DNA of 49,152 nt, from NCBI GenBank assembly GCA_017549125.1, contig JAFYVL010000039.1, positions 1 to 49,152 of the forward strand. Reading direction: 5' to 3'. The notes under the pieces were generated by a model. The model did not search any database and was not told the DNA's origin. It saw only the letters and a list, made by a program, of their open reading frames with translations. Positions within the stretch are counted from its first letter, which is position 1; each line of letters starts with the position of its first letter. The position numbers and the translations under genes were made by a program. Positions 1,745 through 27,814 of the stretch are shown here, in pieces. The stretch is from Oscillospiraceae bacterium (GTDB lineage: Bacteria > Bacillota > Clostridia > Oscillospirales > Oscillospiraceae).

Positions 1745-1764
1745 TACAATTGAAGGTGAAAAGC

Positions 1765-6849: not shown

Positions 6850-6974
6850 AGAAAACCGCTCCTTTTTTTGGTGATTTATCAAAAACAGAAAAACTGTATG
6901 GTTTACAAATTCATGACCCGTAATTTACCTGTGAATACGGCTTCACCCGACCAAGTGTCGGCTTTGGGAGTTCC

Positions 6975-11522: not shown

Positions 11523-11548
11523 AGGTTACCTCCTGCAATTAGGGGTGT

Positions 11549-14500
11549 TCAATTTTCTTCCTTGAAAAAGATGTTGTTCAGTTCCCACTTCTCTACCACA
11601 TTCAGATACCGGTTGCACAGATCCAGAACGGCGCTCTGCTGATCCGTAGAATAAGTATTCCATGCGCTGTCGACTTGCTGCAAGGTTTCCTTCATAGTGG
11701 TGGAGTAGGATGCACTTTCCTGGGTATAGGTGGTTTCGCCTACAGCGAAATTCACCACAGCGGTGGCATAAATATTCATTTCGCCGCCGTTGCACTTAAG
11801 AATGTTCTTCAAGCGCAGGGTGATTTCCTGCTTGTCGCTGGTGTAGGTCTTCACATTGTTCTCATCCACCCACAGACGGAAACCGAAGTCGGTCACCATG
11901 CTCTGCACCAGGGCATCACCATAAAGCTTTGCCTTATAGCCCAGGGCATCGTTGGTAGGATCCAGAGAAATGTGGGTCAGCTCTGCGCTGTAGGGATGGG
12001 CTGTGTAAACACCGTTTTCACCATAGGTCAGATAGTTCTGTCCTGCATTCTGGGCAAAGATCTCCACAGAGCCGGCTACCACAGCACTACCACAAGTTTC
12101 CTCATAGGTTGCCGCAGAGTCCACGATCTTCAAGCTGCTGCCTTCAGCGGCTACAACACCGGTCAAGTGGAAGCCTGCCAGATCGATGGTGGTGTTACCG
12201 GTAACGGTAAACACCTCGTCGCTATTTGCCATTACGGTGATGACTGCATTTTCTGCATTGGCTACAGCCTCTGCCAGAGTTGCATAAACTTGCTCACCCA
12301 CAGCTGCCACCGCGTTCATGACATGGAAATTATCATACATGGCATCGTTGTGCTGGCTGCGGATACCCACCTGACCCTGGCTTAGATCACGATCTGCGGT
12401 ATATGTAGTAGAAATACTCTTGGTAGGATCAGATTTCAGGCTCAAGGTGGCAGTGACCGTATTGCCGCTGATATCCACACGAAGTGTCAGAGGCTCCTTC
12501 ACACCGCCGGTGAACAGATTATTGCCCTTACCGGTCTCAGAGATCACACGGTCAAGCGCAGCCCATGAGGGGAACTGACCGATCACCAGATCTGCGCGGT
12601 TGGGCGCATCGTCCCAGCCGGTCATATTGGACTCTACACCAATGTACAGGGCATTGATCTGGTCTTGACCATTTGCCACATTGGATGCACCGATGTACAG
12701 ACCGCCGTTGATAAAACCGGTCTCGCCGTTGGGATAGATATCTACGCTGACAGAGGAAACGGTAGAACCGTTACCCTTGTAAATGGCCTTGAACTCACCG
12801 GCCTTGCCGCCGGCAACCAGCTTGCCGTCACGGACGGTGAAGCCACCGCTGGAAGTAGAATACAGGTCGAAAGCTTCCCATGCCTCTGCTACGGAGCTAA
12901 AGTCTACGATAGAAGGCACAGCAGGCTTTTCAGCCGGGGTGGTATCGTCGGTTTCATCGACCATATCCAAGGTGAAGGAGAACTGATTCTCCGTCATAAA
13001 GTATTGCTCTTTGATGGTGGAGTAGGTTTCCACCTGCACATTTTTGCCGTCCTCAGAGAAGTACAGCATGGTGATCATGCCGGTAGAGCCTTGTGCGGCA
13101 TCGACACCCTGGGGATCTACCAGGATCTGGGTAACCACATTACCGTGATCACCGATATCCTGTGCCATAACCACACGGTCACAGGGATCGTGTCCGCTGA
13201 GTACCAGCACGATATTGGAGTGCTTGGATACCAGCTTCTCCCACAGATGGTCGCCGTCATTGCAACCGCCGGAGGTGGAAGGAGGACAAACATCGCCTTT
13301 ATCCAGGGTTGTTCCGTCACGGAACAAATATGCGTGGGTGGTAATGATTACATTATATTCGGGATGCTCTTCAATTACCTGGTTTGCCCACTTCAGCACT
13401 GCATCGCTGGCACCGTAATCCAGGGTCATGATCAGATATTTAACAGTACCAACTGTCAGAGTGCGCCAGGTATTCTCGATACCGCCATCGAAGCTGCCTT
13501 CGATGGTTGCGGCATAGTCACCTCGATTAAAGGTTTCGTTCATCAGAGCAGAGCCGTCATGGTTACCTCTGACCAAGCTATAGCCAACCTGGCCATCCAT
13601 CTGGGTGATCAGATCGTAAACATAGCTCCACTCGGATTCCAGATTCTTATCTGTGATGTCACCCATACCAAGCACATACTGAATGTTCTTGGATTCCCGA
13701 TTGGCAAGAATCCAATCGTAAAGCTTAGCCAACTCGGTAGTACCGTTGGTGACATCCTTGTAAGCCACCTTCTGGGTGTCACCTACCACTACCATGGAGT
13801 AGCTGTAATCGGTGACGGGCTCTTTCTCAGAGAACCAGGTGGTGTACCGCTTCACAGTATAACCATTGCCGCTGTTATCAGCAATCTGCGAAGGTGCATT
13901 CAGATTTTCCAAATTCCAGGCTGCTACCAGGTCATCCTTGCGGACACCGGTCATGCTAGCCATATCTGCCTTAATTTCAGAAGCAGTACGAGCATCGGCA
14001 AACAGAGCCAGAGACTTGATGCTGCCCAAGAAATAACGCTCGTTGCCGCTGCGCAGGTCACCGCCCAGAGCGATGGCATTGTTGCAAATGGTATCTTCTA
14101 CGACCTGTACCTTAGACTGCGCCAGATAGCCATTTACATAGCAATCCAAAGTACCGGCTGCATCGTTGACCACGATGGTCAAATGTGTCCATTCACCGGT
14201 GCGCAGATCTACGTTATCGAATCGGCAATCCAGCTTCTTGTCGCCTTCATATTCCACATAGAAACGAGGAATACCATCGGTAAACACTTCCAGGTTGATG
14301 CATGCATCACCTGCGCCAAAGTTACCCACGATGACACCGCCACGCTGGTCATCCGCCAGATCCGCAGGTACATAGATCTCAGCCTCAATGGTATGGGGCA
14401 TAACGTCCAGCTGCTTCTGGGTTTTGTAGGTGGCCTCACCGTCAAAGGTCATGCCGCCTTCGTTGGTTACGGGGGTGGGAGTTTTCAGCATGGCATGATA

Positions 14501-15811
14501 GCCGTTGCCACTCTGATCGTAAATGGCATTTGCGCCCAGATTACCGGCGGTAACCCAGTATGCCATCAAATCTTCCTCGCCGGGAGCGTATATATCCGCT
14601 GCAATTTCCTCAGCGGTACGCATATCGGTGTAGGCAGCAACGGATTTCAGTTCGCCCTTGAACCACTGCGCATTATCGGTTCGCAGGTCACCGCCCAACA
14701 CCATGGGACTAGCAGAGATTTCCGTAGGAATCACTGCATCCATGCTCTGCTTCAGAACTCCATCCACATAGCAATGGATTTTTCCTGCGGCATCGTCAAT
14801 GGCAAATGCCACATGTACCCACTTACCGGTATACACGCTGGGAACACTGGTAAATCTCAGGTCGATGGTAGGCTTGCTATTGGCATCCTGCATATAGAAG
14901 CGAGGCTGACCGGAAGTATTAAATTCCACCGTCAAGTTCGGTCTGCCGGAATTGTAGTTACCGATCACGCTACCGGAACGAGCATTATAGTCCTTATCAA
15001 ACTTGAACCAAGTCTCGATGGTACGAGGCATAGAGGGGAATCCCTTGACCGCCTGATACATCCCGGTTTGTGTGAAGGTCATGGGCAGGGAAGCATTGTA
15101 GCCGTTGCCGCTGATGTCCTTCAGGGTCTGTGCGCCCTGCTGACCGGTCAGATCCCATGCTGCCATCAGACCTTCCGGAGCGAGGGTGATCATGTCTGCC
15201 TTGACTTCAGCGGCAGTACGCACATCCTCATACAGAGCCACGCCCTTCAGTTCGCCCTTAAAATACTGGGTATTGGCCAGGTTGTCACGCAGGTCACCGC
15301 CAATAAGAGGTGCGCTAAAGGTCAAATCCTTAGGAACGGCATACTGGGGTGCTTTGGTCTGCTTCAATTCACCGTTCACATAGCAAGAAATAGTACCCAC
15401 ACTGCCCTCGACGTCGTTGATGACCAGAGCCACGTGAACATACTCACCGGTGCAGACATTGACGTTTTGGAACTTCACATCAATGAATACGTCATTTCCA
15501 GCATCATCAATAAACTGTACAAAGAGACGGGGAGCGCCGCTGGTGTTGATTTCGAACACGAAGTCAGGTCTGCCCACATTGTAGTTGCCGATAATACAGC
15601 CGCCACGACCCGTAAAACTTGGATCAAACTTGACCCATGCTTCCATGGTACGGGGCATAGCAGAAAAACTCTTTTCCAGCTGGTACTGCTTAGCCGCAGT
15701 GAAGGTCATTCCAGGCTCTGTTTCCTGTGCCATGGCGGACATGGCAGGAATCAGAGACAGGATCATGACCAGGGTCAGAACCAGAGATACTACGCGATTA
15801 AACTTTGTCAT
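11549..15811 (-). CDS. Secreted LamG3-metallophosphoesterase-CBM66-like-domain X protein
   Basis: A 1420-residue exported protein, start ATG 15811 behind AGGAGGTAACTT. The signal peptide (VVSLVLTLVMILSLIPAMSAMA) ends near 29. Three LamG/concanavalin-like domains (about 33-215, 230-430, 445-640), each with FTxxKxYQ/MPRTxEAWVKF-type starts and CYVNGxLKQ-type strands, precede a calcineurin-like metallophosphoesterase (about 670-950). Metal-site motifs are GDTQ, GMGDITD, GNHD, TTHAY and SGHDP. A single CBM66/DUF1080-like unit (about 980-1167) and the shared domain X (about 1170-1420) follow. The family hydrolyses phosphomonoesters, phosphodiesters or nucleotides, so the substrate is open. Its place between GH43 genes and its glycan-binding-like modules suggest phosphate on a glycan (inference). 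A homologous phosphoesterase domain occurs in the gene at 31883-37471 in a different module order. Confidence 0.85.
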   Translation of the reverse strand: MTKFNRVVSLVLTLVMILSLIPAMSAMAQETEPGMTFTAAKQYQLEKSFSAMPRTMEAWVKFDPSFTGRGGCIIGNYNVGRPDFVFEINTSGAPRLFVQFIDDAGNDVFIDVKFQNVNVCTGEYVHVALVINDVEGSVGTISCYVNGELKQTKAPQYAVPKDLTFSAPLIGGDLRDNLANTQYFKGELKGVALYEDVRTAAEVKADMITLAPEGLMAAWDLTGQQGAQTLKDISGNGYNASLPMTFTQTGMYQAVKGFPSMPRTIETWFKFDKDYNARSGSVIGNYNSGRPNLTVEFNTSGQPRFYMQDANSKPTIDLRFTSVPSVYTGKWVHVAFAIDDAAGKIHCYVDGVLKQSMDAVIPTEISASPMVLGGDLRTDNAQWFKGELKSVAAYTDMRTAEEIAADIYAPGEEDLMAYWVTAGNLGANAIYDQSGNGYHAMLKTPTPVTNEGGMTFDGEATYKTQKQLDVMPHTIEAEIYVPADLADDQRGGVIVGNFGAGDACINLEVFTDGIPRFYVEYEGDKKLDCRFDNVDLRTGEWTHLTIVVNDAAGTLDCYVNGYLAQSKVQVVEDTICNNAIALGGDLRSGNERYFLGSIKSLALFADARTASEIKADMASMTGVRKDDLVAAWNLENLNAPSQIADNSGNGYTVKRYTTWFSEKEPVTDYSYSMVVVGDTQKVAYKDVTNGTTELAKLYDWILANRESKNIQYVLGMGDITDKNLESEWSYVYDLITQMDGQVGYSLVRGNHDGSALMNETFNRGDYAATIEGSFDGGIENTWRTLTVGTVKYLIMTLDYGASDAVLKWANQVIEEHPEYNVIITTHAYLFRDGTTLDKGDVCPPSTSGGCNDGDHLWEKLVSKHSNIVLVLSGHDPCDRVVMAQDIGDHGNVVTQILVDPQGVDAAQGSTGMITMLYFSEDGKNVQVETYSTIKEQYFMTENQFSFTLDMVDETDDTTPAEKPAVPSIVDFSSVAEAWEAFDLYSTSSGGFTVRDGKLVAGGKAGEFKAIYKGNGSTVSSVSVDIYPNGETGFINGGLYIGASNVANGQDQINALYIGVESNMTGWDDAPNRADLVIGQFPSWAALDRVISETGKGNNLFTGGVKEPLTLRVDISGNTVTATLSLKSDPTKSISTTYTADRDLSQGQVGIRSQHNDAMYDNFHVMNAVAAVGEQVYATLAEAVANAENAVITVMANSDEVFTVTGNTTIDLAGFHLTGVVAAEGSSLKIVDSAATYEETCGSAVVAGSVEIFAQNAGQNYLTYGENGVYTAHPYSAELTHISLDPTNDALGYKAKLYGDALVQSMVTDFGFRLWVDENNVKTYTSDKQEITLRLKNILKCNGGEMNIYATAVVNFAVGETTYTQESASYSTTMKETLQQVDSAWNTYSTDQQSAVLDLCNRYLNVVEKWELNNIFFKEEN

Positions 15812-15826
15812 AAGTTACCTCCTGTG

Positions 15827-18283
15827 TCAGGCTTCTGTTTGAATCCTGAAGTTTCTGAAAGCACAGCCGGCCTTGTTGGAACACAGAGCCACCTGGCCAT
15901 AGAGGAATGCGTTTGCGTCGTACATATCAATTACAGGGGTTTCCATATCGTCCAGGTAGACCATGATCCGATTGTTCTTCAAGGTCACCTTTACCGTATG
16001 GTACTCGCCCTTCATCCAATCCACACCTACCAGATCCAGGTTCTCTGCGCCGTAATTGTAACGGCTCAAGGTCACCTGGTCATTTCGCAGGGACAGATAA
16101 TAACCGCTGAAGGACTCGTCCATGTTGTTCATAAGGACATGGTTCTTAGCACGCAGAAGAATACCGGCATCATAGATGGTGGCTTCTTCTGTCATGGCCA
16201 CCTCCACCTGTACGGTGAAGTCTGTCAAAGTCTCGTCACCGGCATAGGCATAGGCCTTATCGCCGGAACGAGCGGTATGGGCATCGTCAATGATCTTCCA
16301 GTTGCCGATGTAAGACCAGCCCTGTTCATTGATCTCGTTCAGGGGATTCTCGTAGGTCAGCTCTGTGGGGTTCGTGGGCTCTAAAGTAAAGCTGTTGACC
16401 TCCATTTTGCCTTCCATGAGACGGATCTTGATGGTATGCTCACCAGCGGTCAAAGGCAAATGACCCAGCATGGAATTGACGAATCCTTCCCGAATGCCCA
16501 CCTTAGGAGCAGTAAAGGTATAGATCTCCTTGCTGTCGATGACCACCTGGAAGCGAGCGCCTGCAGAGGCGGCTGTCAGCTGGGCGGACAGGCCGTAGAA
16601 GCTATCCTCGGTGACACGGATGGCATATTTGACCCAGTCACCGGCCGTATCCAGCTTCAGGGAGTAGCTGCCGGTGGATTCATCGTAACCGGTATGCTCT
16701 TTTTCGCCTTGACGGATGCCGTTTTCCTTCACCTTGGCCTTCTCAATGGAGAAGCCGCGGTTTTCACCCTTGAGGTAATGGACAGCCGGGAAAGAACCGG
16801 ATACCATCTTCACGGTATCAAAGTCACCGGTACCAAAAGCATCGTTGGAGAACGCCAGGTAGCTAAACTGGGCATCGCCAGCCACACCGATCTTACCGGC
16901 AGTACCCTTGCGCTCCACATCGATTTTCCGCATAGCGTCAATATACACCAGTACACGGGATGCGCCCTGCTCCACACGGACGGTGTGCAGCACGTCAGCA
17001 TCCAGGAAGTCCACCATTTCCTCTGCCAAAGTCTGAGACTTGCCGCCGGAAACAGCGATCAGGCTCAAGGTCTTGGTGGCATCATCCCACAGGATCTGGC
17101 AGTAGTTCTTGGCATCCTTGTAGCCAAATACCAAAGAGGTCTGACCATTGGCCTTAGGAATGAAGTTATACTCTGCAGTAAATACCTTCTGGGCTGCGGT
17201 ATTGCTCAGCAGGTACTCCCCTGCTGTCTCCATGCCCTCTGTGCCACGGATCTCGAAATCGGGACGCTCCGGCACAGGCACATCGGAATAGGTAGGACCG
17301 TTGGCCATCACAATGCCGCCGTTGGTCACCAGCTTATCCACCATGTAACGACGCTGAGGACCGGCAGTAGCGATCAGATTATGATACGCAGTATACCAGG
17401 AATCCAGATCCGGGCCGATTACATTGGAGCTGTGACCCAGACCACGGAAATTATCCGGGCCGGTAGCCAAAATGATAATGTTATCGGTGGGCATAATGAA
17501 CTGACCGGAAGGATCTGTGCCCAGCTGATAGGAATAGCCCACACGGTAGCTGTCGCTGACAACGGAGTTACCCGTATAGGTCAGATACAGCATATCGCCA
17601 CGGCGGAACATACCGGGGCCTTCTGTCCAGCCGTTCAATGTGCCTGCCAGGCTGGTTTCGATACCGGGAAGCATGGTTTCCGTATCCACAGGTGCGATTT
17701 GCATCACATTGTTATCCGGATACAGGAAATACAGCTGGCCGTCATCACCGATCCAGAATGCACCGTCGATCTTACGACCGAAATTGTCGGTAACTCTCTC
17801 AAAAGGACCGGTGGGACTCTTACTCTTGAAAATGTAGTGGCCCTGGCCGTTCTGGGATTCACACATATAGAACCAGCCATTGTAGTAAACCACTTCGGGG
17901 GCATAGGCATAGTCTGCATCCTCGCCCTCCACGGCAAAACCCTCATAGGTCCAGTTTACCAGATCCTCAGAGGAGAACACCTTCACACCGGTCACACCGT
18001 TTTCCGGTTGACCGGAGGAAGGATACATATAATATTTACCGTCATAGCGCATAACGAAGGGGTCACCGATACCGTACTCGCCGCCGCTGGTGTCTACGCT
18101 TGCGCCCCATTGGCCTTCAATGTCCTGACCGTTATGGTAGGTCTGGCTTTCCGTAAAGGTGTATTGCTTTTCACCTTCGTCCTTTGCCTTGCCGAAATCC
18201 GGTGTGGAATCACAGCCCGCAAAAGGCAGTACCATGGATACCACCAGCACAAATGCCAGGGTACGCAATAAAATATTCTTCAT
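15827..18283 (-). CDS. GH43 glycosidase lipoprotein with LamG, CBM6-like and DUF1080-like modules
   Basis: An 818-residue lipid-anchored enzyme. The start is ATG 18283 with AAGGAGGG; the stop of the preceding gene overlaps that site, indicating tight coupling. The lipobox is PFAGC (Cys about 24). Modules: GH43 propeller (about 45-340), LamG-like sandwich (about 345-505), CBM6-like jelly roll (about 505-640, GDWVKYAIRV, LTAGEHTIKIRL) and a DUF1080/CBM66-type sandwich (about 645-818, ending AGCAFRNFRI). Catalytic residues: Asp in GIGDPFVM, Asp in KIDGAFW, Glu in TEGPGMF; His in GLGHSSN. It is very similar to the catalytic half of the secreted GH43 at 7011-11522 but tethered to the membrane, suggesting the same linkage is attacked at the surface and at a distance. 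The precise specificity is unknown. Confidence 0.87.
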   Translation of the reverse strand: MKNILLRTLAFVLVVSMVLPFAGCDSTPDFGKAKDEGEKQYTFTESQTYHNGQDIEGQWGASVDTSGGEYGIGDPFVMRYDGKYYMYPSSGQPENGVTGVKVFSSEDLVNWTYEGFAVEGEDADYAYAPEVVYYNGWFYMCESQNGQGHYIFKSKSPTGPFERVTDNFGRKIDGAFWIGDDGQLYFLYPDNNVMQIAPVDTETMLPGIETSLAGTLNGWTEGPGMFRRGDMLYLTYTGNSVVSDSYRVGYSYQLGTDPSGQFIMPTDNIIILATGPDNFRGLGHSSNVIGPDLDSWYTAYHNLIATAGPQRRYMVDKLVTNGGIVMANGPTYSDVPVPERPDFEIRGTEGMETAGEYLLSNTAAQKVFTAEYNFIPKANGQTSLVFGYKDAKNYCQILWDDATKTLSLIAVSGGKSQTLAEEMVDFLDADVLHTVRVEQGASRVLVYIDAMRKIDVERKGTAGKIGVAGDAQFSYLAFSNDAFGTGDFDTVKMVSGSFPAVHYLKGENRGFSIEKAKVKENGIRQGEKEHTGYDESTGSYSLKLDTAGDWVKYAIRVTEDSFYGLSAQLTAASAGARFQVVIDSKEIYTFTAPKVGIREGFVNSMLGHLPLTAGEHTIKIRLMEGKMEVNSFTLEPTNPTELTYENPLNEINEQGWSYIGNWKIIDDAHTARSGDKAYAYAGDETLTDFTVQVEVAMTEEATIYDAGILLRAKNHVLMNNMDESFSGYYLSLRNDQVTLSRYNYGAENLDLVGVDWMKGEYHTVKVTLKNNRIMVYLDDMETPVIDMYDANAFLYGQVALCSNKAGCAFRNFRIQTEA

Positions 18284-18297
18284 ATTCCATACCCTCC

Positions 18298-20715
18298 TTA
18301 AGCGATTGCCTTGTCAGAGAAGAAGCTGTACCAATCCGGATCTTGGGGATCAGGACACAGATCATCATGGTGCCATGCCGTAGTGCCGTCCTTATTGACG
18401 GTCACCTGGCCGAAAGCCACACTGATCAGATCTGTGGGTCGGCTACCACCAAACTCTGCCCAGGGAACGAATACCTCGATGCAGTAGCCTGTATCGGTTT
18501 TCCGTGCGCCGGACAAAATGTTAGGTGTGCGGAAATCTGCATAAGCACCGTTTTCACCCTTGCGGAAGAGCATATTGCCTGCTGCATCCACCAGGATGGT
18601 ACGATCCTTGGCATCGGGATTGCCGCCGTTACAATCATAGTCCATATAGATCTCGATACTGCTGTTCTGGAAGGGCTTATCGCCACCGGTATACACACGG
18701 TTATCGGCCACAGTAAAGCCGAAATAGCAACCCTTGTCCGTCCAGAACCAATTGACAGATACGCTGTCGCTGTTAAAGCGATGCACCGCTGTGCCGTCCC
18801 AATGCTCTTCATTGATACGGCCATCCAGCATGATCTCGGGCTTTTCTACCGGATCGCCCAGGAATTCGCCAATATAGGTCTGGGTAAAGTCGCTGTACAG
18901 GTCGGGTTTCTGAGGATCGGTACACCAGCCATCATCATGCCAAGCTGTGCCCTTCTGACCGGCAGCCAAGGTAACCTGACCCAGAGCAATACCCATCTTT
19001 TCCGGCTTCTTGATACCCAGCTCCACCCAGGGAATGTACAATTCCACATTGTAGCCTGTATTGGTTTTCTTCACACCGGATTGAATCCGGTTCGTACCAA
19101 AGTCAATATACTTGCCGCCAATACCCTTACGGAACAACATATTTCCGGCCGCATCCACCAAAATGGTACGGTCATGGTCATCGGGCTTGCCACCGTTCTT
19201 GTTAGCATCCAGATAAACCTCAATACTGCTGTTTTCAAAGGGTTTTGCACCGTTGGTCTTTACATAGTTGTCTGCAACGGTGAAGGCCATGTAACAGCCA
19301 CGGGCTGTCCAGAACCACTGCACTTTTACACTATCTTTATGATAAGTAAAGCTGGGTGTGTTCTTCCATTTTGCTTCGCTGAATGCGCCGTCCAGGTTCA
19401 CTTCCGGATCGGGAGCAGGCTCTACTGCGCCTTCAATACCCTTTGCCGTCATGTTGATATAGGTATCCGGCACCTGAGGATCTGTGCCAATACCGCTCCA
19501 GGAGATCAGTCGGCTACCGTCTGCGTTGAACTTGCCGTCCCAATCCACAGAACCGAAGCTAACCTTCACGCTCTGGGGAGCAAATTCATAGTTCAGATCT
19601 GCCCAAGGCACAAACACTTCCACCGCATAGCCGTCCTGGGTTTCGCAAGTACCGGCGAACACATTGTTCATCACATTGTTCCATTCGCCGTCGCCCACAC
19701 CACGGAGGACTTCGATATTGCCGGCCGCATCCACACGAACCTGCACATCGTCCGTATCGGGCTTCTTGCCGCCATTGGACAAAGCATCCATGTAGATTTC
19801 CACAGAGTCATTGAGGAATACGGAGTTGCCGTCCACGCTGACCACATCATCCCGCATCTCAATGAAGAAATAACAGCCCTTCTCGTCAAAGTGGTTCTTG
19901 ACAGTACCGCGGCCGCCATCTGCGAAGGCATAGACCAGCTTACCTGCCCATGCGCTGTCGGTGTCCTTGCCGTCCAGATTCAGATTGGACTGGTTCACCT
20001 TCCGGAAATATTCCACGGAATTGGTGTCACGGTACAATTTTAAATAGGTATCGGGAGATTGGACATTGACGCCGGGTGCGCCACGCCAGATCTCACGGAC
20101 GTTGCTGCGGCAACCAACCAGACCGAAGGCGATACCGTAGTCCACTTGGGGCTCACCGCCCAGCTGGGAATAGGGAATGAACATTTCTACGCAGTAGTTG
20201 TTGTTCTCATCCCAGATACCGACCTCGCCGTTGACCTTCACAGCGTAGTTCTTGATCAGGCTGTCCTCATGCCACTTACCGCTGCTACCGCGACGGCTGA
20301 GACTCTGCTCGTTAATGTCCATGAAGATCTGCAGATGCTCGTTTTCGGGCTGTGTACCACCCTTACCGCTGTAATCCAGATACACCTCGAAAGAGGTATT
20401 ATCATAGACCAAGGTACTGGTTGCCCACAGTTCCGGGTCGTTGACCACTGCGCCCACATAGACACCGCTTTCGCCATAGAAAGCCTTAACCGTAGCGTTG
20501 ATCTCATCACCGAAGGTAAATTCCTTCAGATTTTCCCATTTGCTGTCATCCAGCACACCGTCCAAGGTAATTTCAGGCTTTTTGTAGCCTGTCTCCACCA
20601 GGAAGGGGTTTGCGTCTGCCTTGGCCTTGTAGTCCTTGGGCAAGGAATTACTACAAGCAGTCAGACCCAGTAGCACCAAAGCCAGAAGCCAAGGAAGCCA
20701 TTTTCTTTTATTCAT
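18298..20715 (-). CDS. Lipoprotein of four tandem CBM9-like domains
   Basis: An 805-residue lipoprotein with no catalytic domain seen. The start is ATG 20715, five bases after AAGGAGG; the frame runs 22 codons further upstream, into the permease gene, without a ribosome site. The lipobox is LGLTAC (Cys about 21). Four homologous CBM9-like domains start near 48, 242, 438 and 623, each with (V)xLDGxxxExxWxx, a central SSxEVYLDxxxxGG, ILVDAAGNMLFRKG or a variant, and a xGYxxExxxPWxExG strand. CBM9 domains bind reducing ends of plant polysaccharide chains in some xylanases; related sandwiches occur in many surface proteins. It lies directly after the permease genes, so capture of oligosaccharides next to the importer is plausible. 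Confidence 0.82.
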   Translation of the reverse strand: MNKRKWLPWLLALVLLGLTACSNSLPKDYKAKADANPFLVETGYKKPEITLDGVLDDSKWENLKEFTFGDEINATVKAFYGESGVYVGAVVNDPELWATSTLVYDNTSFEVYLDYSGKGGTQPENEHLQIFMDINEQSLSRRGSSGKWHEDSLIKNYAVKVNGEVGIWDENNNYCVEMFIPYSQLGGEPQVDYGIAFGLVGCRSNVREIWRGAPGVNVQSPDTYLKLYRDTNSVEYFRKVNQSNLNLDGKDTDSAWAGKLVYAFADGGRGTVKNHFDEKGCYFFIEMRDDVVSVDGNSVFLNDSVEIYMDALSNGGKKPDTDDVQVRVDAAGNIEVLRGVGDGEWNNVMNNVFAGTCETQDGYAVEVFVPWADLNYEFAPQSVKVSFGSVDWDGKFNADGSRLISWSGIGTDPQVPDTYINMTAKGIEGAVEPAPDPEVNLDGAFSEAKWKNTPSFTYHKDSVKVQWFWTARGCYMAFTVADNYVKTNGAKPFENSSIEVYLDANKNGGKPDDHDRTILVDAAGNMLFRKGIGGKYIDFGTNRIQSGVKKTNTGYNVELYIPWVELGIKKPEKMGIALGQVTLAAGQKGTAWHDDGWCTDPQKPDLYSDFTQTYIGEFLGDPVEKPEIMLDGRINEEHWDGTAVHRFNSDSVSVNWFWTDKGCYFGFTVADNRVYTGGDKPFQNSSIEIYMDYDCNGGNPDAKDRTILVDAAGNMLFRKGENGAYADFRTPNILSGARKTDTGYCIEVFVPWAEFGGSRPTDLISVAFGQVTVNKDGTTAWHHDDLCPDPQDPDWYSFFSDKAIA

Positions 20716-20726
20716 TGTTTTCCTCC

Positions 20727-21569
20727 TTAGCCCTTCAATCCGGAAACTACCATGGAATCTACAAAATACCGCTGGAAGCAAATATACAGCACCAACAGCG
20801 GCAGACAGGAGATCACAGCACCGGCCATGATCATGGGATACTCACTGGTGGCCTCAGACATGTTGTTCAGAAGCCGCAATGCCAATTGAATGGTATAGTT
20901 TTCTTCGCTGTCCAAATAGATCAGCGGACCCATAAAGTCATTCCAAATGCCCATGAACCAGAAGATCACCTGCGCTGCAATAGCAGGCTTCATGGTGGGC
21001 AGCATGATCTTGCGGAAGATGGTGATCCATCCTGCGCCGTCGATCTTTGCCGCATCGATCAGTTCATTGGGAACACCGGCCAAATACTGCCGGAAGAAGA
21101 ACATCATGGTGATATTACCCAGCGTACCGGGCAAAATCAAGGGAATAAAGCTGTCGATATAGCCTGCCTTGCCCCAAACCAGATACTGGGGGATCAAGGT
21201 GACCATGCCGGGGATCATCATGGAGCTGAGCAATGCCATAAACAGAAAATTCTTCTTGGGAATATCCATTTTGGCAAAGGCAAAGGCTGCCATGGCAGAG
21301 GACAGAGTACCAAACAGCAGCACCGGAATGGCAATAGTCAAGCTGTTCTTAATACCGCTGAGCAAGGGAGCAACCTCCCAAACCTCTGTGTAACCTTCCC
21401 AGTTGAAAGGATCGGGAATCCACTTGGGCGGAAATTCCAATGCGCTCATTTTATCCTTCAAGGATGTGGAAATCATCCAGATGAAGGGAAAAAGCATGGT
21501 CAAAGACACCAGGATCATAATAATATGGATCACGGTGTTGACCAATCGTTCTTTTGTACGAATTTTCAT
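20727..21569 (-). CDS. CUT1 sugar ABC transporter permease, MalG/AraQ type (system 1)
   Basis: Inner-membrane permease of a carbohydrate ABC importer, 280 residues with about six hydrophobic segments. The EAA loop that contacts the ATPase is ELIDAAKIDGAGWITIFRKI followed by MLPTMKPA. The N-terminus KERLVNTVIHIIMILVSLTM and the C-terminal ending near FVDSMVVSGLKG are typical of MalG-type partners. The start is ATG 21569, 12 bases after the partner permease stop. Its own stop overlaps the ribosome site of the CBM9 lipoprotein gene, so the two are translationally close. No ATPase gene is present in the window; clostridial CUT1 systems often share an MsmX/MsmK-type ATPase encoded elsewhere. Confidence 0.92.
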   Translation of the reverse strand: MKIRTKERLVNTVIHIIMILVSLTMLFPFIWMISTSLKDKMSALEFPPKWIPDPFNWEGYTEVWEVAPLLSGIKNSLTIAIPVLLFGTLSSAMAAFAFAKMDIPKKNFLFMALLSSMMIPGMVTLIPQYLVWGKAGYIDSFIPLILPGTLGNITMMFFFRQYLAGVPNELIDAAKIDGAGWITIFRKIMLPTMKPAIAAQVIFWFMGIWNDFMGPLIYLDSEENYTIQLALRLLNNMSEATSEYPMIMAGAVISCLPLLVLYICFQRYFVDSMVVSGLKG

Positions 21570-21581
21570 AACACCGCCTCC

Positions 21582-22487
21582 TTAATGACTGCCGTCATAG
21601 ACCCAGCGCTTGGACATCTTGAACTGGATCAATGTTACCGCCATGATAAACAGGGACAACAGCCATGCCACAGCACAGGCAGCACCCATGTTATACTCTG
21701 TAAAGCCCTTCTGGTACAGGTAGTACACCACAGTCATTGCGGAATGCTCCGGGCCCAGACCGGTGATGATAAACTGATCGCCGAAGGCCTGCAAACCACC
21801 GATGACACCGGTGATAATTACATAGAAATAGGTAGGACTCATCATGGGCAGGGTCACATAGCGCAATTTGTGCCATGCGTTGCCACCGGCCACATCCACC
21901 ACTTCGTAATATTCCTTGGGCACATTCTGCAAACCTGCCAAAAACAGCAGCATGGTGTTACCCAGACCACGCCATACACCCAACAGGATCAAGGTGATCT
22001 TGACCATAGCCGGGTCGCCCAGCCAGTTAGGGCCGGGCTTACCGGTGATCTGCTGAATGATCATATTCAAAATACCGTACTCTGCATTGAAGATCCATCT
22101 CCACAGCAGCGCAATGGCCACGGTGGAAGTAACTGCAGGCAGATACACAATGACACGGTAAATGGTCTTACCACGCATTTTCCGGTTCAAAGCCAATGCC
22201 AGCAGCATTGCCAGGATCATACCCACAGGAATACCGATCATCAAATAGATGGTATTGCCCAGGGACTTCCAAAACAGCGGATCTTCCAGAACCTTTTTGA
22301 AATTTTCAAGTCCAATAAAGTTTTCTGTGCCTTCCAATATGTTCCAGTCCGTCATACTCATGTACAAGGAATAGCCCATAAAGAACAGGAAAAACACAGT
22401 AAATTGGAGAAAGATCGGCGCAATAAAGGCAAGACCCGCTCTACGCTCAGAGCGTCTCAGCTTGCTGGCCGTTCCTTTCTTTTTCAT
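21582..22487 (-). CDS. CUT1 sugar ABC transporter permease, MalF/UgpA type (system 1)
   Basis: Inner-membrane permease, 301 residues, partner of the MalG-type permease just downstream. It shows RRAGLAFIAPIFLQFTVFFL at the first membrane segment, FIGLENFKKVLEDPLFWKSL in the periplasmic-side region, and an EAA-type loop YEVVDVAGGNAWHKLRYVTL followed by PMMSP. The start is ATG 22487 after AGAGGTG. The gene lies 23 bases after the solute-binding protein gene and 12 before the next permease, a standard CUT1 order. EVV in place of the usual EAA is a small deviation. Confidence 0.92.
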   Translation of the reverse strand: MKKKGTASKLRRSERRAGLAFIAPIFLQFTVFFLFFMGYSLYMSMTDWNILEGTENFIGLENFKKVLEDPLFWKSLGNTIYLMIGIPVGMILAMLLALALNRKMRGKTIYRVIVYLPAVTSTVAIALLWRWIFNAEYGILNMIIQQITGKPGPNWLGDPAMVKITLILLGVWRGLGNTMLLFLAGLQNVPKEYYEVVDVAGGNAWHKLRYVTLPMMSPTYFYVIITGVIGGLQAFGDQFIITGLGPEHSAMTVVYYLYQKGFTEYNMGAACAVAWLLSLFIMAVTLIQFKMSKRWVYDGSH

Positions 22488-22510
22488 GGTTTTTCACCTC
22501 TGTTTTTTGC

Positions 22511-23857
22511 TTATTTGCCCTCGTCCAGACGCTCCTGCATCTTGGGCTGGATCTCCTTGACGAATTCTGCGGCAGTCATATCGCCGTTCCAGACCTTGCT
22601 GGACTCAGAATAGAAATAGGTAAACCAAGTGGTATTCTTGGTATAGTAAGTGGGCTTGAACTGACCCTTTTCTGCATCTTCGATGATGTTCAGGAATACC
22701 TGCTTGTTGGCGGGTGCCTTGTCCATAGCCAGATAGTCGTTCTTAGCCATGTCTACGATGTTGGGAACAGCCTGACCGGCCTCGTAGTTGTACTTCTGAG
22801 CCTCAACGTTCATGCTCAGGAACTCTGCCAACTCGTAAGCCAGCTGCTTCTGCTTGGAATCCTTGGATACGCACAAAGCGGCAGATGCCAGCCAAGTGAC
22901 ACCCTTACCGGTCTTGTCAGATACGGGAGTGGGCATAATGTCCCATTCAAAGCTTACGCTATCCCAGAAGGTAGCCTGGTCCCAGGGACCCATCCATGCC
23001 ATACCCACCTTACCGTTACACCAACGGGTAAACCAACCGCTGGCGCTATCCTCGGCTGCGGTAGGAGAAACACCATGCACCAGAGCCAGGTCTGCAACCC
23101 ACTGCATAGCCTCAGCAAACTCGGGGGTATCTACGGTAACCTGGGTGTGATCCTTGTTCAGGAAATCTGCGCCATTGGACCATACAGCAGATTCCAGGGT
23201 GTAGTTCGCAGTACCAAAGACCTTGTTAACGCCCTTACCGCTGGTCAGCTTCTTACAAACCTCTACGAACTCGCTCCAGGTCATGGGGACTTCGGGATCG
23301 GGCAGAGGAATGCCGTTGGCCTCGAACAGGGTCTTGTTGTAAACCATTGCCCAGGGACCCAGATCCTTAGGCAGACCGTACAGGTCGCCGGACTCTACGC
23401 CCACCTGATGGGTTGCGCTGTCATAACGGAAAATGTTCAGAGACTTCTCCCAAACGGTGGTGTTAGCAGCCACTTCGGAAGCCTGCATATAGGGAGTCAG
23501 ATTCTCCAGACGGCCTGCATCGACCCAGGAGTAGAACTCATCGGAGTGGATGTAGAACACATCGGGCATCTTGTTAGCAGCCAGCAAGGAGGTCAGCTTG
23601 ACCAAATAGTCTTCCTGGGAGCCGGGAATGTGCTGATAGTTGACCTTCACACCGGGGTGGGTCTTTTCGAACTCGTCGATCATGGAAGTAAAGATCTTCT
23701 TTTCGGCCAGAGAGCCCCAGCCTGCGAAGGTAATTACGGTGTTGCCTTCGTTGTCTACGCTTTCGCCGCCCAGGGTCTTACCCTTACCGCAGGCAGCCAT
23801 TGCCAGCACCATAACCAGAGCCAGCATCAGAGATACGATTCTTTTTGCCATTTTCAT
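22511..23857 (-). CDS. Extracellular sugar-binding lipoprotein of ABC system 1
   Basis: Family 1 (CUT1) solute-binding protein, 448 residues. The start is ATG 23857 after AGGAGG. The signal peptide ends at a lipobox, LAMAAC (Cys about 23). The mature part begins with the usual ITFAGWGSLAEKKIFTSMID strand-helix, with YLVKLTSLLAANKMPDVFYI (a typical CUT1 early motif) and GKVGMAWMGPWDQATFW later. It delivers an oligosaccharide to the two permeases encoded next to it. The ligand cannot be read from sequence. The high number of aromatic residues is consistent with sugar binding. It lies 19 bases after the GH2 gene. Confidence 0.92.
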   Translation of the reverse strand: MKMAKRIVSLMLALVMVLAMAACGKGKTLGGESVDNEGNTVITFAGWGSLAEKKIFTSMIDEFEKTHPGVKVNYQHIPGSQEDYLVKLTSLLAANKMPDVFYIHSDEFYSWVDAGRLENLTPYMQASEVAANTTVWEKSLNIFRYDSATHQVGVESGDLYGLPKDLGPWAMVYNKTLFEANGIPLPDPEVPMTWSEFVEVCKKLTSGKGVNKVFGTANYTLESAVWSNGADFLNKDHTQVTVDTPEFAEAMQWVADLALVHGVSPTAAEDSASGWFTRWCNGKVGMAWMGPWDQATFWDSVSFEWDIMPTPVSDKTGKGVTWLASAALCVSKDSKQKQLAYELAEFLSMNVEAQKYNYEAGQAVPNIVDMAKNDYLAMDKAPANKQVFLNIIEDAEKGQFKPTYYTKNTTWFTYFYSESSKVWNGDMTAAEFVKEIQPKMQERLDEGK

Positions 23858-23876
23858 TACGCTTTCCTCCTATAAA

Positions 23877-25598
23877 TTAACCAAAAATTTTTCTTAACGT
23901 TTCCACGGGAACCTTCGGTTCACGATTACCGTCCAGCAAGCCGTTGGTTTCCTGCTGTACATCCGTCAACTGGGTGTAGCAGAAGCCACGGACTCTGTTA
24001 TGGCTGCGGATAGCCTGCATAATATCACGCAGGTACACCACCATTTGGTCAGCATCGGCCATATCGTTGTTATAGCCCCAGCCGCCGTCGTTCTTCAGTT
24101 TGACACCGCCCATTTCTGTGATCATAATGGGCACTTGGTTATAGGTTTCACCTGCTGCATACACAGGCTTGAAATTCACGCTGCCACGCAATGTCTCCTC
24201 AATGTCGGCATAGCGGGTGGCGAAATTATCGGGAGTGATGTCATAGTCGTGGATGCCGCAGAAATCGGTCAGTTCCAGCTGCTCCCAGCCATCGTTAGAA
24301 CCAACCAGGCGGCTGTTATCCAGAGACTTCATCAGATAGTAGCCGGCCTTCACAAAGTTCTTCTGCAAGGGGTCGCCTACGATCTGATGGACACCCCAGC
24401 TTTCGTTAAAGGGAATCCAGGTAATAATACAAGGATGGTTATGGTCACGCTTCATGAAGGCCTGCATCTCAGCCAGGAACATCCGCTGACCCTCTGCAGT
24501 AAAGTCATAATTACTGGGCATCTCGCCCCAAACCAGCAGACCCAGCTTATCTGCCCAGTAGTAGTACCGGGGATCTTCGATCTTCTGGTGCTTTCTTGCG
24601 CCGTTGAAGCCCATAGCCTTGGTCAGCTCCACGTCTGCACGAATGGCATCGTCGGAAGGCGCGGTCATCAGACCCTCCGGCCAGTAGCCCTGATCCAGAA
24701 CCAGACGCTGATACAAAGGAGAATTGTTCAGATAGATCCGCTCGCCGCATACATGGATCTTACGCATACCGAAATAAGTATCCACCGTGTCGATCACCTG
24801 GCCGTCACGGATCATCTGTACCTGCACATCCAGCAGATTGGGGAATTCCGGAGTCCAGTACAGATCGAACACAGAATTAACACCATGCTCCACAAAACCG
24901 AAGCTGCACTCTGTGCGGCTGGCATTGGCAAACACGGTCATAGAACCCAGCACCTCGTCGCCCTTGCGAATGGTCAGCTGCAGATCACAGGGCTGTCCCT
25001 TCAGGGTACGGATCATGAAATATGCACGGCATTGATCCAGATCCGGAGTAATATGTATATCGGTGATATAATCCCGACCGGTGAACTCCATCCACACACT
25101 CTGCCAGATACCGGTGGTGTTGCGATAGAAGCAGGCACGGGGCTCTTTTGCCCACATCTGCTTGCCACGGGGAATTTCACGCTCATAGCTGTCCTCAGCC
25201 TTCACCACCAAAGTGTTCTCACCGGGCTGCAGCAATGCGCTGATCTCCAGATGGAAGGGGGTGAAGCCGCCTTCGTGGCTGCCGGCATACTGGCCGTTGA
25301 TCCACACCTTTGCCACATGATCCACCGCACCGAAATGCAGCAGCACAGAGCCTTCCAGCTCATGGGGGGCAACCACCAGACGGCGGCGGTACCATACGCT
25401 CTTAGAAGGCATATCGGTGTTGATGCCACTCAGTTCCGATTCATAGCAGAAAGGCACTTGAATGGTCTTATCAAAGGGAATTGCACCCAAGCCCTCTGCC
25501 TCATACCGATCCTCGGGATCGAAGGAAAACTCCCACTCTCCGTTTAGGGTCAGCCAGTTTTCTCTTGCAAACGCGGGGTTCGGTAATTCTGTACGCAT
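23877..25598 (-). CDS. Intracellular GH2 glycosidase (module 1)
   Basis: A 573-residue glycoside hydrolase family 2 enzyme without a signal peptide, so cytoplasmic. I prefer ATG 25598 (AAGGA seven bases upstream); GTG 25613 with GGAG is also possible. N-terminal sugar-binding jelly roll (NWLTLNGEWEFSFDP, VWYRRRLVV, HFGAVDHVAKVWINGQ, GGFTPFHLEIS), then an Ig-like domain, then a TIM barrel. The acid/base Glu is in PFNESWGV (about 398) and the nucleophile Glu in MITEMGG (about 494). GH2 includes beta-galactosidases, beta-glucuronidases and arabinofuranosidases; this is the short form without extra C-terminal domains. It probably works on imported oligosaccharides. It starts right after the regulator stop, so the two are co-transcribed. 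Confidence 0.9.
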   Translation of the reverse strand: MRTELPNPAFARENWLTLNGEWEFSFDPEDRYEAEGLGAIPFDKTIQVPFCYESELSGINTDMPSKSVWYRRRLVVAPHELEGSVLLHFGAVDHVAKVWINGQYAGSHEGGFTPFHLEISALLQPGENTLVVKAEDSYEREIPRGKQMWAKEPRACFYRNTTGIWQSVWMEFTGRDYITDIHITPDLDQCRAYFMIRTLKGQPCDLQLTIRKGDEVLGSMTVFANASRTECSFGFVEHGVNSVFDLYWTPEFPNLLDVQVQMIRDGQVIDTVDTYFGMRKIHVCGERIYLNNSPLYQRLVLDQGYWPEGLMTAPSDDAIRADVELTKAMGFNGARKHQKIEDPRYYYWADKLGLLVWGEMPSNYDFTAEGQRMFLAEMQAFMKRDHNHPCIITWIPFNESWGVHQIVGDPLQKNFVKAGYYLMKSLDNSRLVGSNDGWEQLELTDFCGIHDYDITPDNFATRYADIEETLRGSVNFKPVYAAGETYNQVPIMITEMGGVKLKNDGGWGYNNDMADADQMVVYLRDIMQAIRSHNRVRGFCYTQLTDVQQETNGLLDGNREPKVPVETLRKIFG

Positions 25599-25617
25599 AA
25601 TTGTATCCTTCACATGA

Positions 25618-26559
25618 TCACTCCGTTCTTTTATCTTTGTAAGTAAATTTCATTAGTATATTTTGCTGATAGTTGCCAAATTTTTCACCGAACAAATTCA
25701 CACCGCCACGGTTCACCGCATCGGGCTTGATACCGATCCGCAGAGTGAAATAATCGTCCTGTTCTACATTTAATTGATTCAACTTCACAGAAGATACTTT
25801 ATTCTCATCCAGATAAGTACCTCCGCTATTGACACGAATGGTTTTCAGCAGGCCATATTGGGTGGAGAAATCCGACCACCAATCGGGATTCAGCTTTCCT
25901 CGATGGCCACCAAAGTCACCCGGAGACACCCAGGTACACAGCTCCTTGCCGTTGATCCAGAAGGTAATGTCCGATGCCCAATCATTGCGGTAGTTGGGCG
26001 CTTCCGAACAGATCTCCAAACTGAAACTCAGACCCACAGGATCTTTGTCTTTTAAAAAGTAGTTAGGAATCCGATATTCCAGATAGCCTTCGCTGAACCA
26101 AACCATCTGGGCGCTGGCTCGAGCCGGGGAGAAAAATACACCGGGGGTATCGTCGGTTTCAATAATATTCTCCTCATTGGCCATGCCACAACTGGGTACA
26201 GCATGGCAATCCGTGAAACTGCCGATGGGAATATCCAGCACCGTGGACAATTCCTTATTGGCATCAAAGCCGCCTACATAGCTGATATTGATCTCGTCGA
26301 TCTTTCGGCTGATGATCTTGGAAGATCCATGCTGGGCAGATTGGGATTGCACGTGCACCAGGTCCGCCGCCTGTAAATGATTGATATGGAATGCCGCTGT
26401 GGAGGTGGGAATGTGCAGCCGTCTGGCAATTTCCGTGACGCTGTAACTGTTGATACTGACCAATCGCAGAATATCCCGACGGGTCTTGGAGGCCATGGCC
26501 GCCATGATTTTGTCCAGCCGTTCTTCCTCATCGATGGATAGGTGCATATATCTCGACAT
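25618..26559 (-). CDS. ArsR-type transcriptional regulator with large C-terminal sensor-like domain
   Basis: A 313-residue protein. The start is ATG 26559, nine bases after AGGGGG; ATG 26565 would be only three bases from it. Residues about 10-90 are an ArsR/HTH_20 winged helix: LDKIMAAMASKTRRDILRLV, then SVTEIARRLHIPTSTAAFHI as the recognition helix region. The remaining ~220 residues are rich in beta strands and aromatics (MVWFSEGYLEYRIPNYF, LSFSLEICSEAPNY, ITFWINGKELCTW, PDWWSDFSTQYG) and resemble a sugar-binding sandwich more than any metal-sensing ArsR tail, but I cannot name the family. Classical ArsR proteins are about 100 residues. First gene of module 1, so probably autoregulated through the palindromes upstream. 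It is most likely a repressor released by an oligosaccharide (inference). Confidence 0.8.
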   Translation of the reverse strand: MSRYMHLSIDEEERLDKIMAAMASKTRRDILRLVSINSYSVTEIARRLHIPTSTAAFHINHLQAADLVHVQSQSAQHGSSKIISRKIDEINISYVGGFDANKELSTVLDIPIGSFTDCHAVPSCGMANEENIIETDDTPGVFFSPARASAQMVWFSEGYLEYRIPNYFLKDKDPVGLSFSLEICSEAPNYRNDWASDITFWINGKELCTWVSPGDFGGHRGKLNPDWWSDFSTQYGLLKTIRVNSGGTYLDENKVSSVKLNQLNVEQDDYFTLRIGIKPDAVNRGGVNLFGEKFGNYQQNILMKFTYKDKRTE

Positions 26560-26586
26560 AGGCATCCGCCCCCTTCTCACGCTTTA

Positions 26587-26604
26587 TTACAACTTTTCTT
26601 GTAA
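26587..26604. promoter_or_regulatory. Candidate operator O3 (TTACAA-N6-TTGTAA)
   Basis: Perfect six-base half-sites around a six-base spacer, between the transcription start region and the regulator's ribosome binding site. It is 33 bases from O2, three helical turns, which would let two dimers bind on the same face. It shares AGTTGTAA on the minus strand with the other two copies. Confidence 0.6.
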
Positions 26605-26625
26605 CGGGTTACCTCCCCGTTACAA
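26599..26625 (-). promoter_or_regulatory. Leader hairpin formed by facing operator half-sites
   Basis: TTGTAACGGG (26599-26608) and CCCGTTACAA (26616-26625) form a perfect 10-bp stem with a seven-base loop. The stem is made of the inner halves of operators O2 and O3 plus four G/C pairs, in the 5' leader of the regulator message. There is no T-tract. It could be a third, larger protein-binding palindrome or an RNA structure affecting translation. Confidence 0.45.
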
Positions 26626-26637
26626 CTATACTTGTTA
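26620..26637. promoter_or_regulatory. Candidate operator O2 (TTACAA-N6-TTGTTA)
   Basis: Second copy of the palindrome, one base off perfect symmetry, lying roughly 35-50 bases downstream of the expected transcription start. Bound protein here would act as a roadblock. Confidence 0.55.
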
Positions 26638-26677
26638 TTTTGCACAATCTACCACTGCAGACCATGCCACAATTTGT

Positions 26678-26707
26678 ATAATACCACAGCACATCGCCCA
26701 ATGTCAA
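26678..26707 (-). promoter_or_regulatory. Strong sigma-A promoter of the module 1 operon
   Basis: Minus-strand TTGACA (26707-26702), 18-base spacer, TATTAT (26683-26678), placing the transcript start near 26671 and giving a leader of about 110 bases before the regulator start at 26559. Operators O2 and O3 lie downstream in the leader and O1 lies about 35 bases upstream of the -35 box, an arrangement suited to looping repression. Confidence 0.75.
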
Positions 26708-26742: not shown

Positions 26743-26760
26743 TTACAACTTCAGTTGATA
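26743..26760. promoter_or_regulatory. Candidate operator O1 (TTACAA-N6-TTGATA)
   Basis: Third, least symmetric copy of the palindrome, upstream of the promoter. It keeps the complete AGTTGTAA half on the minus strand. Its position upstream of the -35 box could allow looping to O2/O3 or weak activation. Confidence 0.5.
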
Positions 26761-26810: not shown

Positions 26811-26846
26811 AAAAAATCTGCCAATTGCAACCAGCAATTGGCAGAT
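26811..26846 (-). terminator. Intrinsic terminator after the intracellular GH43 gene
   Basis: On the minus strand a 13-bp stem (ATCTGCCAATTGC with GCAATTGGCAGAT, 26846-26816) with a five-base loop is followed by six T bases (26816-26811). It lies 13 bases after the stop codon at 26859 and separates module 2 transcription from the module 1 promoter. Confidence 0.85.
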
Positions 26847-27770: not shown

Positions 27771-27814
27771 CGGTGATCTCTCCTTGTACTGCATTGTTCA
27801 TTCCTACATACCAT

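Follow-up and report, generated by a model that had tools for sequence, protein, structure and literature searches.

The window analysed here, the whole 49,152-nucleotide stretch of a contig from an Oscillospiraceae bacterium, carries on its minus strand an operon headed by the gene for an ArsR-type protein, P0001. The reading frame is intact (25618-26559, minus strand, 313 amino acids plus stop), and its full-length conservation rules out a chance ORF. Alternative in-frame starts lie upstream (the ORF listing opens at 26580) and, in one case, 12 nt downstream, which makes the assigned start provisional. Gaps between the genes that follow are 4-26 nt as far as the gene ending at 7011, with 128 nt before the last gene, and the operon spans 19.5 kb without that last gene or 22.5 kb with it. 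Terminator-like hits across 11450-26560 number 13 on both strands against a shuffle mean of 11.8, which is no excess. The features of the operon are:

25618..26559, minus strand: regulator gene P0001, ArsR-type winged helix plus unclassified C-terminal domain
26347..26496, minus strand: winged helix of P0001 (residues 22-71), Pfam HTH_20/HTH_5
residues ~92-313 of P0001, minus strand: unclassified C-terminal domain
23877..25613, minus strand: GH2 enzyme, nearest solved relatives 7xyr (GH2_19) and 9j6n/9j6m (beta-D-galactofuranosidase, GH2_18)
22511..23857, minus strand: ABC solute-binding protein, nearest solved relative 6rjy, an arabino-oligosaccharide-binding protein (E 5.5e-93)
21582..22487, minus strand: ABC permease 1, named by eye; as profile seed it finds relatives in homologous loci
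20727..21569, minus strand: ABC permease 2, named by eye; as profile seed it finds relatives in homologous loci
18298..20781, minus strand: protein with CBM9-like domains; the listed ORF start overlaps the neighbour and the true start is probably an ATG inside
15827..18283, minus strand: GH43 with CBM6/CBM35 and a 3-keto-disaccharide-hydrolase-like domain (domain matches)
11549..15811, minus strand: 1420-aa protein with three Laminin_G_3 stretches and a metallophosphatase domain (domain matches)
7011..11522, minus strand: 1503-aa GH43 protein with N-terminal FDLYS-type repeats (domain matches)
4012..6882, minus strand: protein with four FDLYS-type stretches (domain search), the last gene, 128 nt behind the preceding one

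The GH2 enzyme matches 7xyr, an entry titled beta-glucuronidase, at E 2.1e-108 and the beta-D-galactofuranosidase 9j6n at E 1.1e-72, and in sequence it resembles the furanosidase group. The FDLYS-type domain is N-terminal and about 200 residues long; it occurs in giant proteins at 22 places on nine contigs, including 10788-11432 (minus) of the window, and no Pfam family was found at this stretch in three proteins scanned (E<=0.001 or 0.0001). A second glycan operon (26859-49113, minus) with an ABC importer, GH43, two giants, GH2, GH3 and GH43 ends just upstream of the regulator, and at 1750-3663 (plus) a gene for a membrane protein, by eye a lipoteichoic-acid-synthase-type sulfatase, runs convergent toward the end of the regulator operon.

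Residues 22-71 of P0001 score above the Pfam cut-offs for HTH_20 (40.3 bits against 27, E 3.1e-10) and HTH_5 (31.4 bits against 22, E 1.8e-7), and this winged helix is the sole above-cut-off Pfam match in the protein. Both models also match all 59 aligned family members at E<=1. ArsR/SmtB metalloregulators are marked by a cysteine metal-site motif in or beside the helix-turn-helix; residues 1-117 of P0001 hold no cysteine at all, and the NCBIfam metalloregulator model NF033788 reaches 36.9 bits, under its cut-off of 55. The sequence-only reading, which had proposed an ArsR-type head lacking metal-binding features, is thus upheld on both counts. All NCBIfam matches to P0001 are below cut-off and confined to the first half of the protein. 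An HTH_5 search of the organism's own genome (E<=0.01; assembly 71.5% complete) returned P0001 as the only match.

The C-terminal domain resembles little in the databases searched. Because the scans of the 59 members list 25 families out of 83 from Pfam and 25 out of 95 from NCBIfam, with match ranges for P0001 only, the C-terminal stretches of ten members were scanned separately, and nothing above cut-off was found in Pfam or NCBIfam. Even at E<=1, eight of the ten were matchless in Pfam and eight of the ten in NCBIfam; the four weak matches (E 0.039, 0.089, 0.21 and 0.21) fall far under cut-off and belong to four different families. A PDB profile search with the family alignment gave ArsR- or other HTH-type chains, over the head region, among the 60 listed of 87 matches (E<=1), and no PDB sequence match was found for the C-terminal part of P0001. 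In an hhalign-type profile comparison with ten nearby domains the best match was a GH2 N-terminal domain, over 13 residues at 15.9% probability. A carbohydrate-binding beta-sandwich, the fold considered in the sequence-only reading, is at most a candidate for residues 92-313. Conservation is nonetheless concentrated here: the 59-row alignment has 17 invariant columns, and residues 113-295 contain 15 of them, the C124-G125 pair is invariant in 59/59 aligned members, and the consensus blocks read WFxxGYVEYRFPN, SEAPxYxxDWPSDITxWINGxExGTWTSPGDFGG and GGxNLFGxxFGNY. No description of the domain was found in the open-licence PMC literature searched. By its sequence P0001 is a member of a long ArsR family, in which head and C-terminal domain are homologous together and which we take to correspond to COG 4189.

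Upstream of the regulator gene lies a set of predicted control elements:

26816..26846, minus strand: predicted intrinsic terminator of the preceding GH43 gene (26859-27794), 13-pair stem
26743..26760, unstranded: third palindrome, weaker (one mismatch), upstream of the -35-like box
26678..26707, minus strand: predicted sigma-70 promoter TTGACA-18-TATTAT (scan; 11/12 match, TG before the -10)
26620..26637, unstranded: operator-like palindrome 2, no mismatch, 33 bp from palindrome 1
26587..26604, unstranded: operator-like palindrome 1, TTACAA-N6-TTGTAA, no mismatch, in the 5' leader
26587..26637, unstranded: composite element, the pair of palindromes 1 and 2

The terminator-like stem separates the preceding GH43 gene from the regulator operon. 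With the pattern TTACAAC-N5-TTGTWA and up to two mismatches, the window gives 12 matches, six of which are the three sites read on both strands, against 1.41 expected, and none of 100 shuffles reaches 12. Both proposals made earlier for this region, palindromes at the regulator's promoter and a regulator standing first in a glycan operon of about 22 kb, agree with these three sites, with the promoter- and terminator-like signals ahead of the gene and with the close-packed GH and ABC genes behind it.

Single palindromes of this kind are not specific. In the organism's own genome the single-palindrome pattern (<=2 mismatches) has 18 hits and its reversed control 20; a lone site therefore carries no weight, and only the pairing is enriched. 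Single-site hits on contigs C31 and C80 came paired, and the hit on C21 was found paired by reading its surroundings. We searched the same 71.5% complete assembly with a composite pattern, ACAA-N6-TTGT-N19-ACAA-N6-TTGT plus six further fixed positions (<=3 mismatches), which was drafted from the sites that it afterwards recovered. It occurs at four places, one in the window (contig C26) and one each on C21, C31 and C80, each on both strands, and the reversed control has none. No match lies inside the second operon (49113-26859), whose promoter falls beyond the contig end.

The four copies share a setting. Each is downstream of a TTGACW / NANNAT pair (found by scan in the window, by eye in the other three), 27 to about 81 nt ahead of a start codon and 39-46 nt after the -10-like hexamer (by eye, 4/4). 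TGTGCA stands just ahead of all four, 5-7 nt from the first ACAA, as TTGTGCA in three (by eye). For the third palindrome, no counterpart was recognised at the other three promoters, where one 7/8 half-match at C80 overlaps the promoter. What follows each element is either the regulator operon or a gene whose giant product begins, by eye, like a signal peptide. The three giant genes are:

C80:4812 onward (locus L133): Laminin_G, metallophosphatase and GDSL domains
C21:94666-98358 (locus L134): DUF4886 and GDSL domains
C31:~21380 to the contig end (locus L132): gene cut by the contig end

With their esterase-like GDSL, DUF4886 and metallophosphatase domains, the C21 and C80 giants could be de-esterifying glycan enzymes. 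Their N-terminal domain is of the FDLYS type, as in the window genes at 7011 and 4012, and the cut C31 gene shows the beginning of such a domain (by eye). The idea that the operator accompanies every FDLYS-type gene was rejected, given that the domain is found at 22 places and the operator at four.

The leader also has folding potential as RNA. Together the two leader palindromes form an inverted repeat with 23-nt arms that are 78% complementary, and the leader (26560-26671, minus) folds at -37.1 kcal/mol (z -5.18), with none of 200 shuffles as low. In the predicted fold a 10-pair stem joins one palindrome to the other, and a further hairpin precedes the pair. Among the 47-nt elements, those of C26, C80 and C21 fold better than all 300 shuffles, whereas that of C31 forms no hairpin and is equalled by 129 of 300 full shuffles. 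When only the 19-nt spacer is shuffled, folds as low arise in 0/300 cases for C26, 30/300 for C80, 114/300 for C21 and 210/300 for C31, a clear contribution in C26 alone. No Rfam family matches at the leader and no T-run was seen after the composite element.

The family to which P0001 belongs is widespread. A scan of genome contigs found at least 589 relatives in several phyla, the best 80 of which were kept for analysis, and tblastn placed the family in 260 of 72,556 plasmid records, 259 of them covering at least 80% of the query in one place. Among 293 genomes of the same class, 36 have a member at E<=1e-30, and among 200 of the same taxonomic family, 5 at E<=1e-15, the organism's own genome included in both; no copy was found in the three other listed genomes of the genus at E<=1e-15. 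In a FastTree phylogeny of 82 rows P0001 groups with three proteins from clostridial metagenome-assembled genomes (L014, L015 and L017, support 99).

Gene labels around 84 loci, 80 scanned and four from plasmids, were assigned with profile HMMs built from neighbour clusters and window genes. The regulator is most often accompanied by a solute-binding protein, two permeases, GH2 and GH43. At least 57 of the 84 loci have GH2, GH43 or GH51 within 9 kb, at least 72 have one or more GH, sugar-ABC or galK/galT genes within that distance and at least 44 have a solute-binding protein of this profile cluster, all of which are lower bounds because of short flanks and missed genes. Where more than 7 kb is available on both sides (n = 60), 44 loci have GH genes and 51 have GH, sugar-ABC or galK/galT genes. 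Longest-ORF gene calling mislabels some loci, and L015, L039, L092 and L006 lost their regulator in this way. Loci frequently run from the regulator through a solute-binding protein and two permeases to GH2 or GH43, an arrangement that the window shares except for the position of GH2. In 20 genomes that we chose from named loci, 33 GH2 copies were found (BLAST-type search, E<=1e-60), and GH2 (HMM, E<=1e-12) lies in 14 of the 20 regulator loci against 0.12 expected. The binding protein of locus L057 matches a differently named sugar-binding protein (4qrz, E 1.8e-24).

The linkage has a second form and some exceptions. Six Lachnospiraceae-type loci from Blautia and relatives (L053, L054, L067, L069, L074 and L044) have galK, galE or galT near the regulator, mostly directly downstream, and five of these six have no GH labelled near. 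Galactofuranose and arabinofuranose share the same ring stereochemistry. The galK/galT adjacency means that galactofuranose fits as well as arabinofuranose. Twelve of the 84 loci have no marked gene near, and one of these (L009) has an annotated arabinofuranosidase. The distant members L144:6567-7538 and L145:6460-7377 lie among non-glycan genes, with HAD-type and malic-enzyme-like neighbours in common (by eye), and may represent a second role for the regulator family. Hence the earlier expectation that homologues sit beside GH and ABC genes holds for the main family, with its 72 of 84 loci, and not for every relative. From the linkage, the targets of these regulators appear to be importers and enzymes for glycans that contain arabinose or galactofuranose.

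Palindromes are also enriched ahead of the family's genes. Identical 5-nt arms gave no shared motif over 85 upstream regions (best 4/85, against 2-5 in 20 shuffles), whereas 6-nt-arm palindromes number 190 against 75-124 in shuffles. Palindromic expectation maximization (EM) with a symmetric matrix, using 60 starts on real data and 40 on shuffled sets, converged on tt.TGTttTAaaACA.aa at width 18 and AaaACAaaAaTttTGTttT at width 19, with a log-likelihood ratio at width 18 of 77.5 against 21.5, 16.4 and 22.2 in three shuffled sets. For a held-out run, 10 near-duplicates and the window were removed and the remaining 74 regions split into two halves. Fold 1 scored 11.3 against -17.8 (sd 2.4) in 50 shuffles; fold 2 scored -1.6 against -12.6 (sd 3.2), above all 50 shuffles, with a matrix that is a different AT-rich palindrome. 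The window's own sites match the family-wide matrices poorly (best 6.3 and 2.1).

A closer counterpart of the window's sites appears in few relatives. A perfect TTACA-N6-9-TGTAA stands upstream of 3 of 107 members (the window, L019 and L038) and L030 matches 9/10 positions; these four are the only ones of the 107 with Ala-Ala-Phe in the recognition helix (helix column at residue 57). Five other members with Phe match 6-8/10 positions, and 9/10 matches occur in 9 of 98 Phe-less members, near the shuffled expectation. The nearest relatives (L014, L015 and L017) have partial operator matches at most upstream of the gene. Rows were left out where no full start was found (L071, L078, L093), where the regulator was not parsed (L104, L122, L128) or where starts were uncertain or the genome was that of a longer locus (L002-L005, L130). 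Since the Ala-Ala-Phe grouping was picked after seeing the sequences, and L030 and L038 are sisters, the apparent joint variation of recognition helix and operator is only a lead.

Taken together, we think it probable that P0001 acts as a one-component repressor on a furanoside-glycan regulon that includes its own gene, working through the paired palindromes and relieved by a furanosyl ligand. We infer its DNA binding, repression as opposed to activation, the class of inducer and the fold of the domain. The ArsR-type winged helix would bind, as dimers, the two ACAA-N6-TTGT palindromes in the 5' leader. With transcription predicted to start near 26671, about 7 nt after the -10, the pair would lie at about +35 to +85, and its 33-bp period, about three helical turns, would put both dimers on one face of the DNA. 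Bound P0001 would stand in the way of RNA polymerase, both at the operon that it heads and at the three promoters of giant, apparently secreted proteins. The C-terminal domain may sense a furanosyl sugar or oligosaccharide, most likely alpha-L-arabinofuranosides, or else beta-D-galactofuranosides or the released sugar, which the operon's ABC importer would bring in and its GH2 and GH43 enzymes would cut. Ligand binding would then release P0001 from the DNA, and with an operator at its own promoter P0001 would also limit its own synthesis.

Another regulator might own the composite operators, with P0001 merely a member of, and controlled by, that regulon; the lack of specificity of single sites, nearest relatives without the same operator and a genome 71.5% complete, from which further regulators may be missing, all leave room for this. 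We nevertheless find it rather improbable, given that one element sits at P0001's own promoter, that P0001 is the only HTH_5 protein found in that assembly and that helix and operator co-vary, though post hoc; the geometry of the pair also resembles that of known ArsR-type sites. The signal could instead be something other than a glycan, that is, P0001 regulates the operon and senses a metal, redox state or a central metabolite, its Trp/Tyr-rich domain being no sugar site. ArsR-type proteins mostly sense metals or redox state, C124-G125 never varies among the 59 members, some members lie away from glycan genes and six lie beside galK or galT. We judge this unlikely: the Cys-free residues 1-117 and the sub-threshold metalloregulator score speak against it, as does the finding of GH, sugar-ABC or galK/galT genes at 72 of 84 loci, and a metal sensor would not be expected to travel across phyla with furanosidases.

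If the third palindrome (26743-26760), which lies upstream of the -35-like box, served activation and the downstream pair tuning, P0001 would be an activator or dual regulator, which appears quite unlikely: of the three sites it is the weakest, nothing like it was recognised at the other three promoters while all four have the downstream pair, and a position behind the promoter suits repression. The C. bescii regulator ArbR was likewise named a repressor from the positions of its sites (PMC8579813). We give a slim chance to the composite element being a leader RNA hairpin (an attenuator, a stability element or the target of an RNA-binding protein) and not a DNA operator. Its placement in the leader as an inverted repeat, the leader's z of -5.18, the three of four copies that beat all 300 shuffles and the added contribution of the spacer in C26 all fit a hairpin and lower our confidence in the DNA reading. 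Yet two like palindromes pair of necessity, which makes folding something that paired DNA operators would also show, and the DNA reading is kept first. C31 lacks a hairpin, the spacer contributes clearly only in C26, each half is itself palindromic, the third copy lies upstream of the promoter and outside the transcript, and neither a T-run nor an Rfam match accompanies the element.

Known regulators resemble P0001 in part. CzrA and SmtB (PDB 1r1u and 1r1t) have winged helices of the same Pfam families; they are about 100-120 aa long and have no C-terminal domain, whereas P0001 has 313 aa and stays under the metalloregulator cut-off. ArsR/SmtB metalloregulators such as CzrA and SmtB have metal sites. 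AraPST is a two-component regulator of arabinose and arabinan use. AraR, another regulator of such use, is of the GntR type (PMC8579813). Both likely share the kind of substrate and the job with P0001, with unrelated DNA-binding and sensing domains.

The closest precedent is ArbA/ArbR of Caldicellulosiruptor bescii, a predicted ArsR-family regulator presented in 2021 as the first of its family to govern carbohydrate use; in the available part of that paper the role of ArbR, as of other repressors, is argued from site positions (PMC8579813). Like P0001, ArbA has the ArsR-family label, a gene beside an alpha-L-arabinofuranosidase gene (abfA) and three predicted sites in a shared control region; unlike P0001, its named target in that text is the divergent abfA and not a large operon with a dispersed regulon, and the two are likened by description only (PMC8579813). 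No Caldicellulosiruptor was named among the loci kept, the best 80 of at least 589 relatives. The arabinan cluster of Geobacillus 56T3, with an ArsR label, a solute-binding protein, two permeases, GH43, a GH2 alpha-L-arabinofuranosidase and galK/galE/galT, has an order close to that of the family here; it is likened by annotation alone, the ArsR gene being a table entry with no regulator study in the available text (PMC4428132). Other mentions of ArsR in sugar clusters stay at annotation level in the texts available, for Geobacillus 56T3 (PMC4428132), Lactobacillus rossiae and a bifidobacterial isomaltulose cluster (PMC4855831, PMC8143103). ArbA was the only regulatory precedent found for a glycan-linked ArsR in the open-licence PMC literature searched, and within it the view of P0001 as a little-described class stands.

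A wider proposal can be put forward tentatively, as one against which we lean slightly: the C-terminal ~220 residues may be a new kind of sensor for furanoses inside the cell, attached to an ArsR-type winged helix. The combination would serve in several phyla as the usual switch of operons for arabinofuranosyl/galactofuranosyl oligosaccharides, and in this organism it would control scattered genes for giant secreted proteins by way of a 47-bp operator pair placed behind the promoter. The usual reading of an ArsR-type protein is that of a metal or redox sensor. One study took an excess of ArsR regulators in a sugar-using Bacillus to signal metal resistance (PMC11575207). A broad family of long ArsR proteins linked to furanosidases and to arabino-oligosaccharide importers would give many glycan operons in Bacillota and Chloroflexota their regulator, and with it a set of candidate operators and a likely new sugar-sensing domain.
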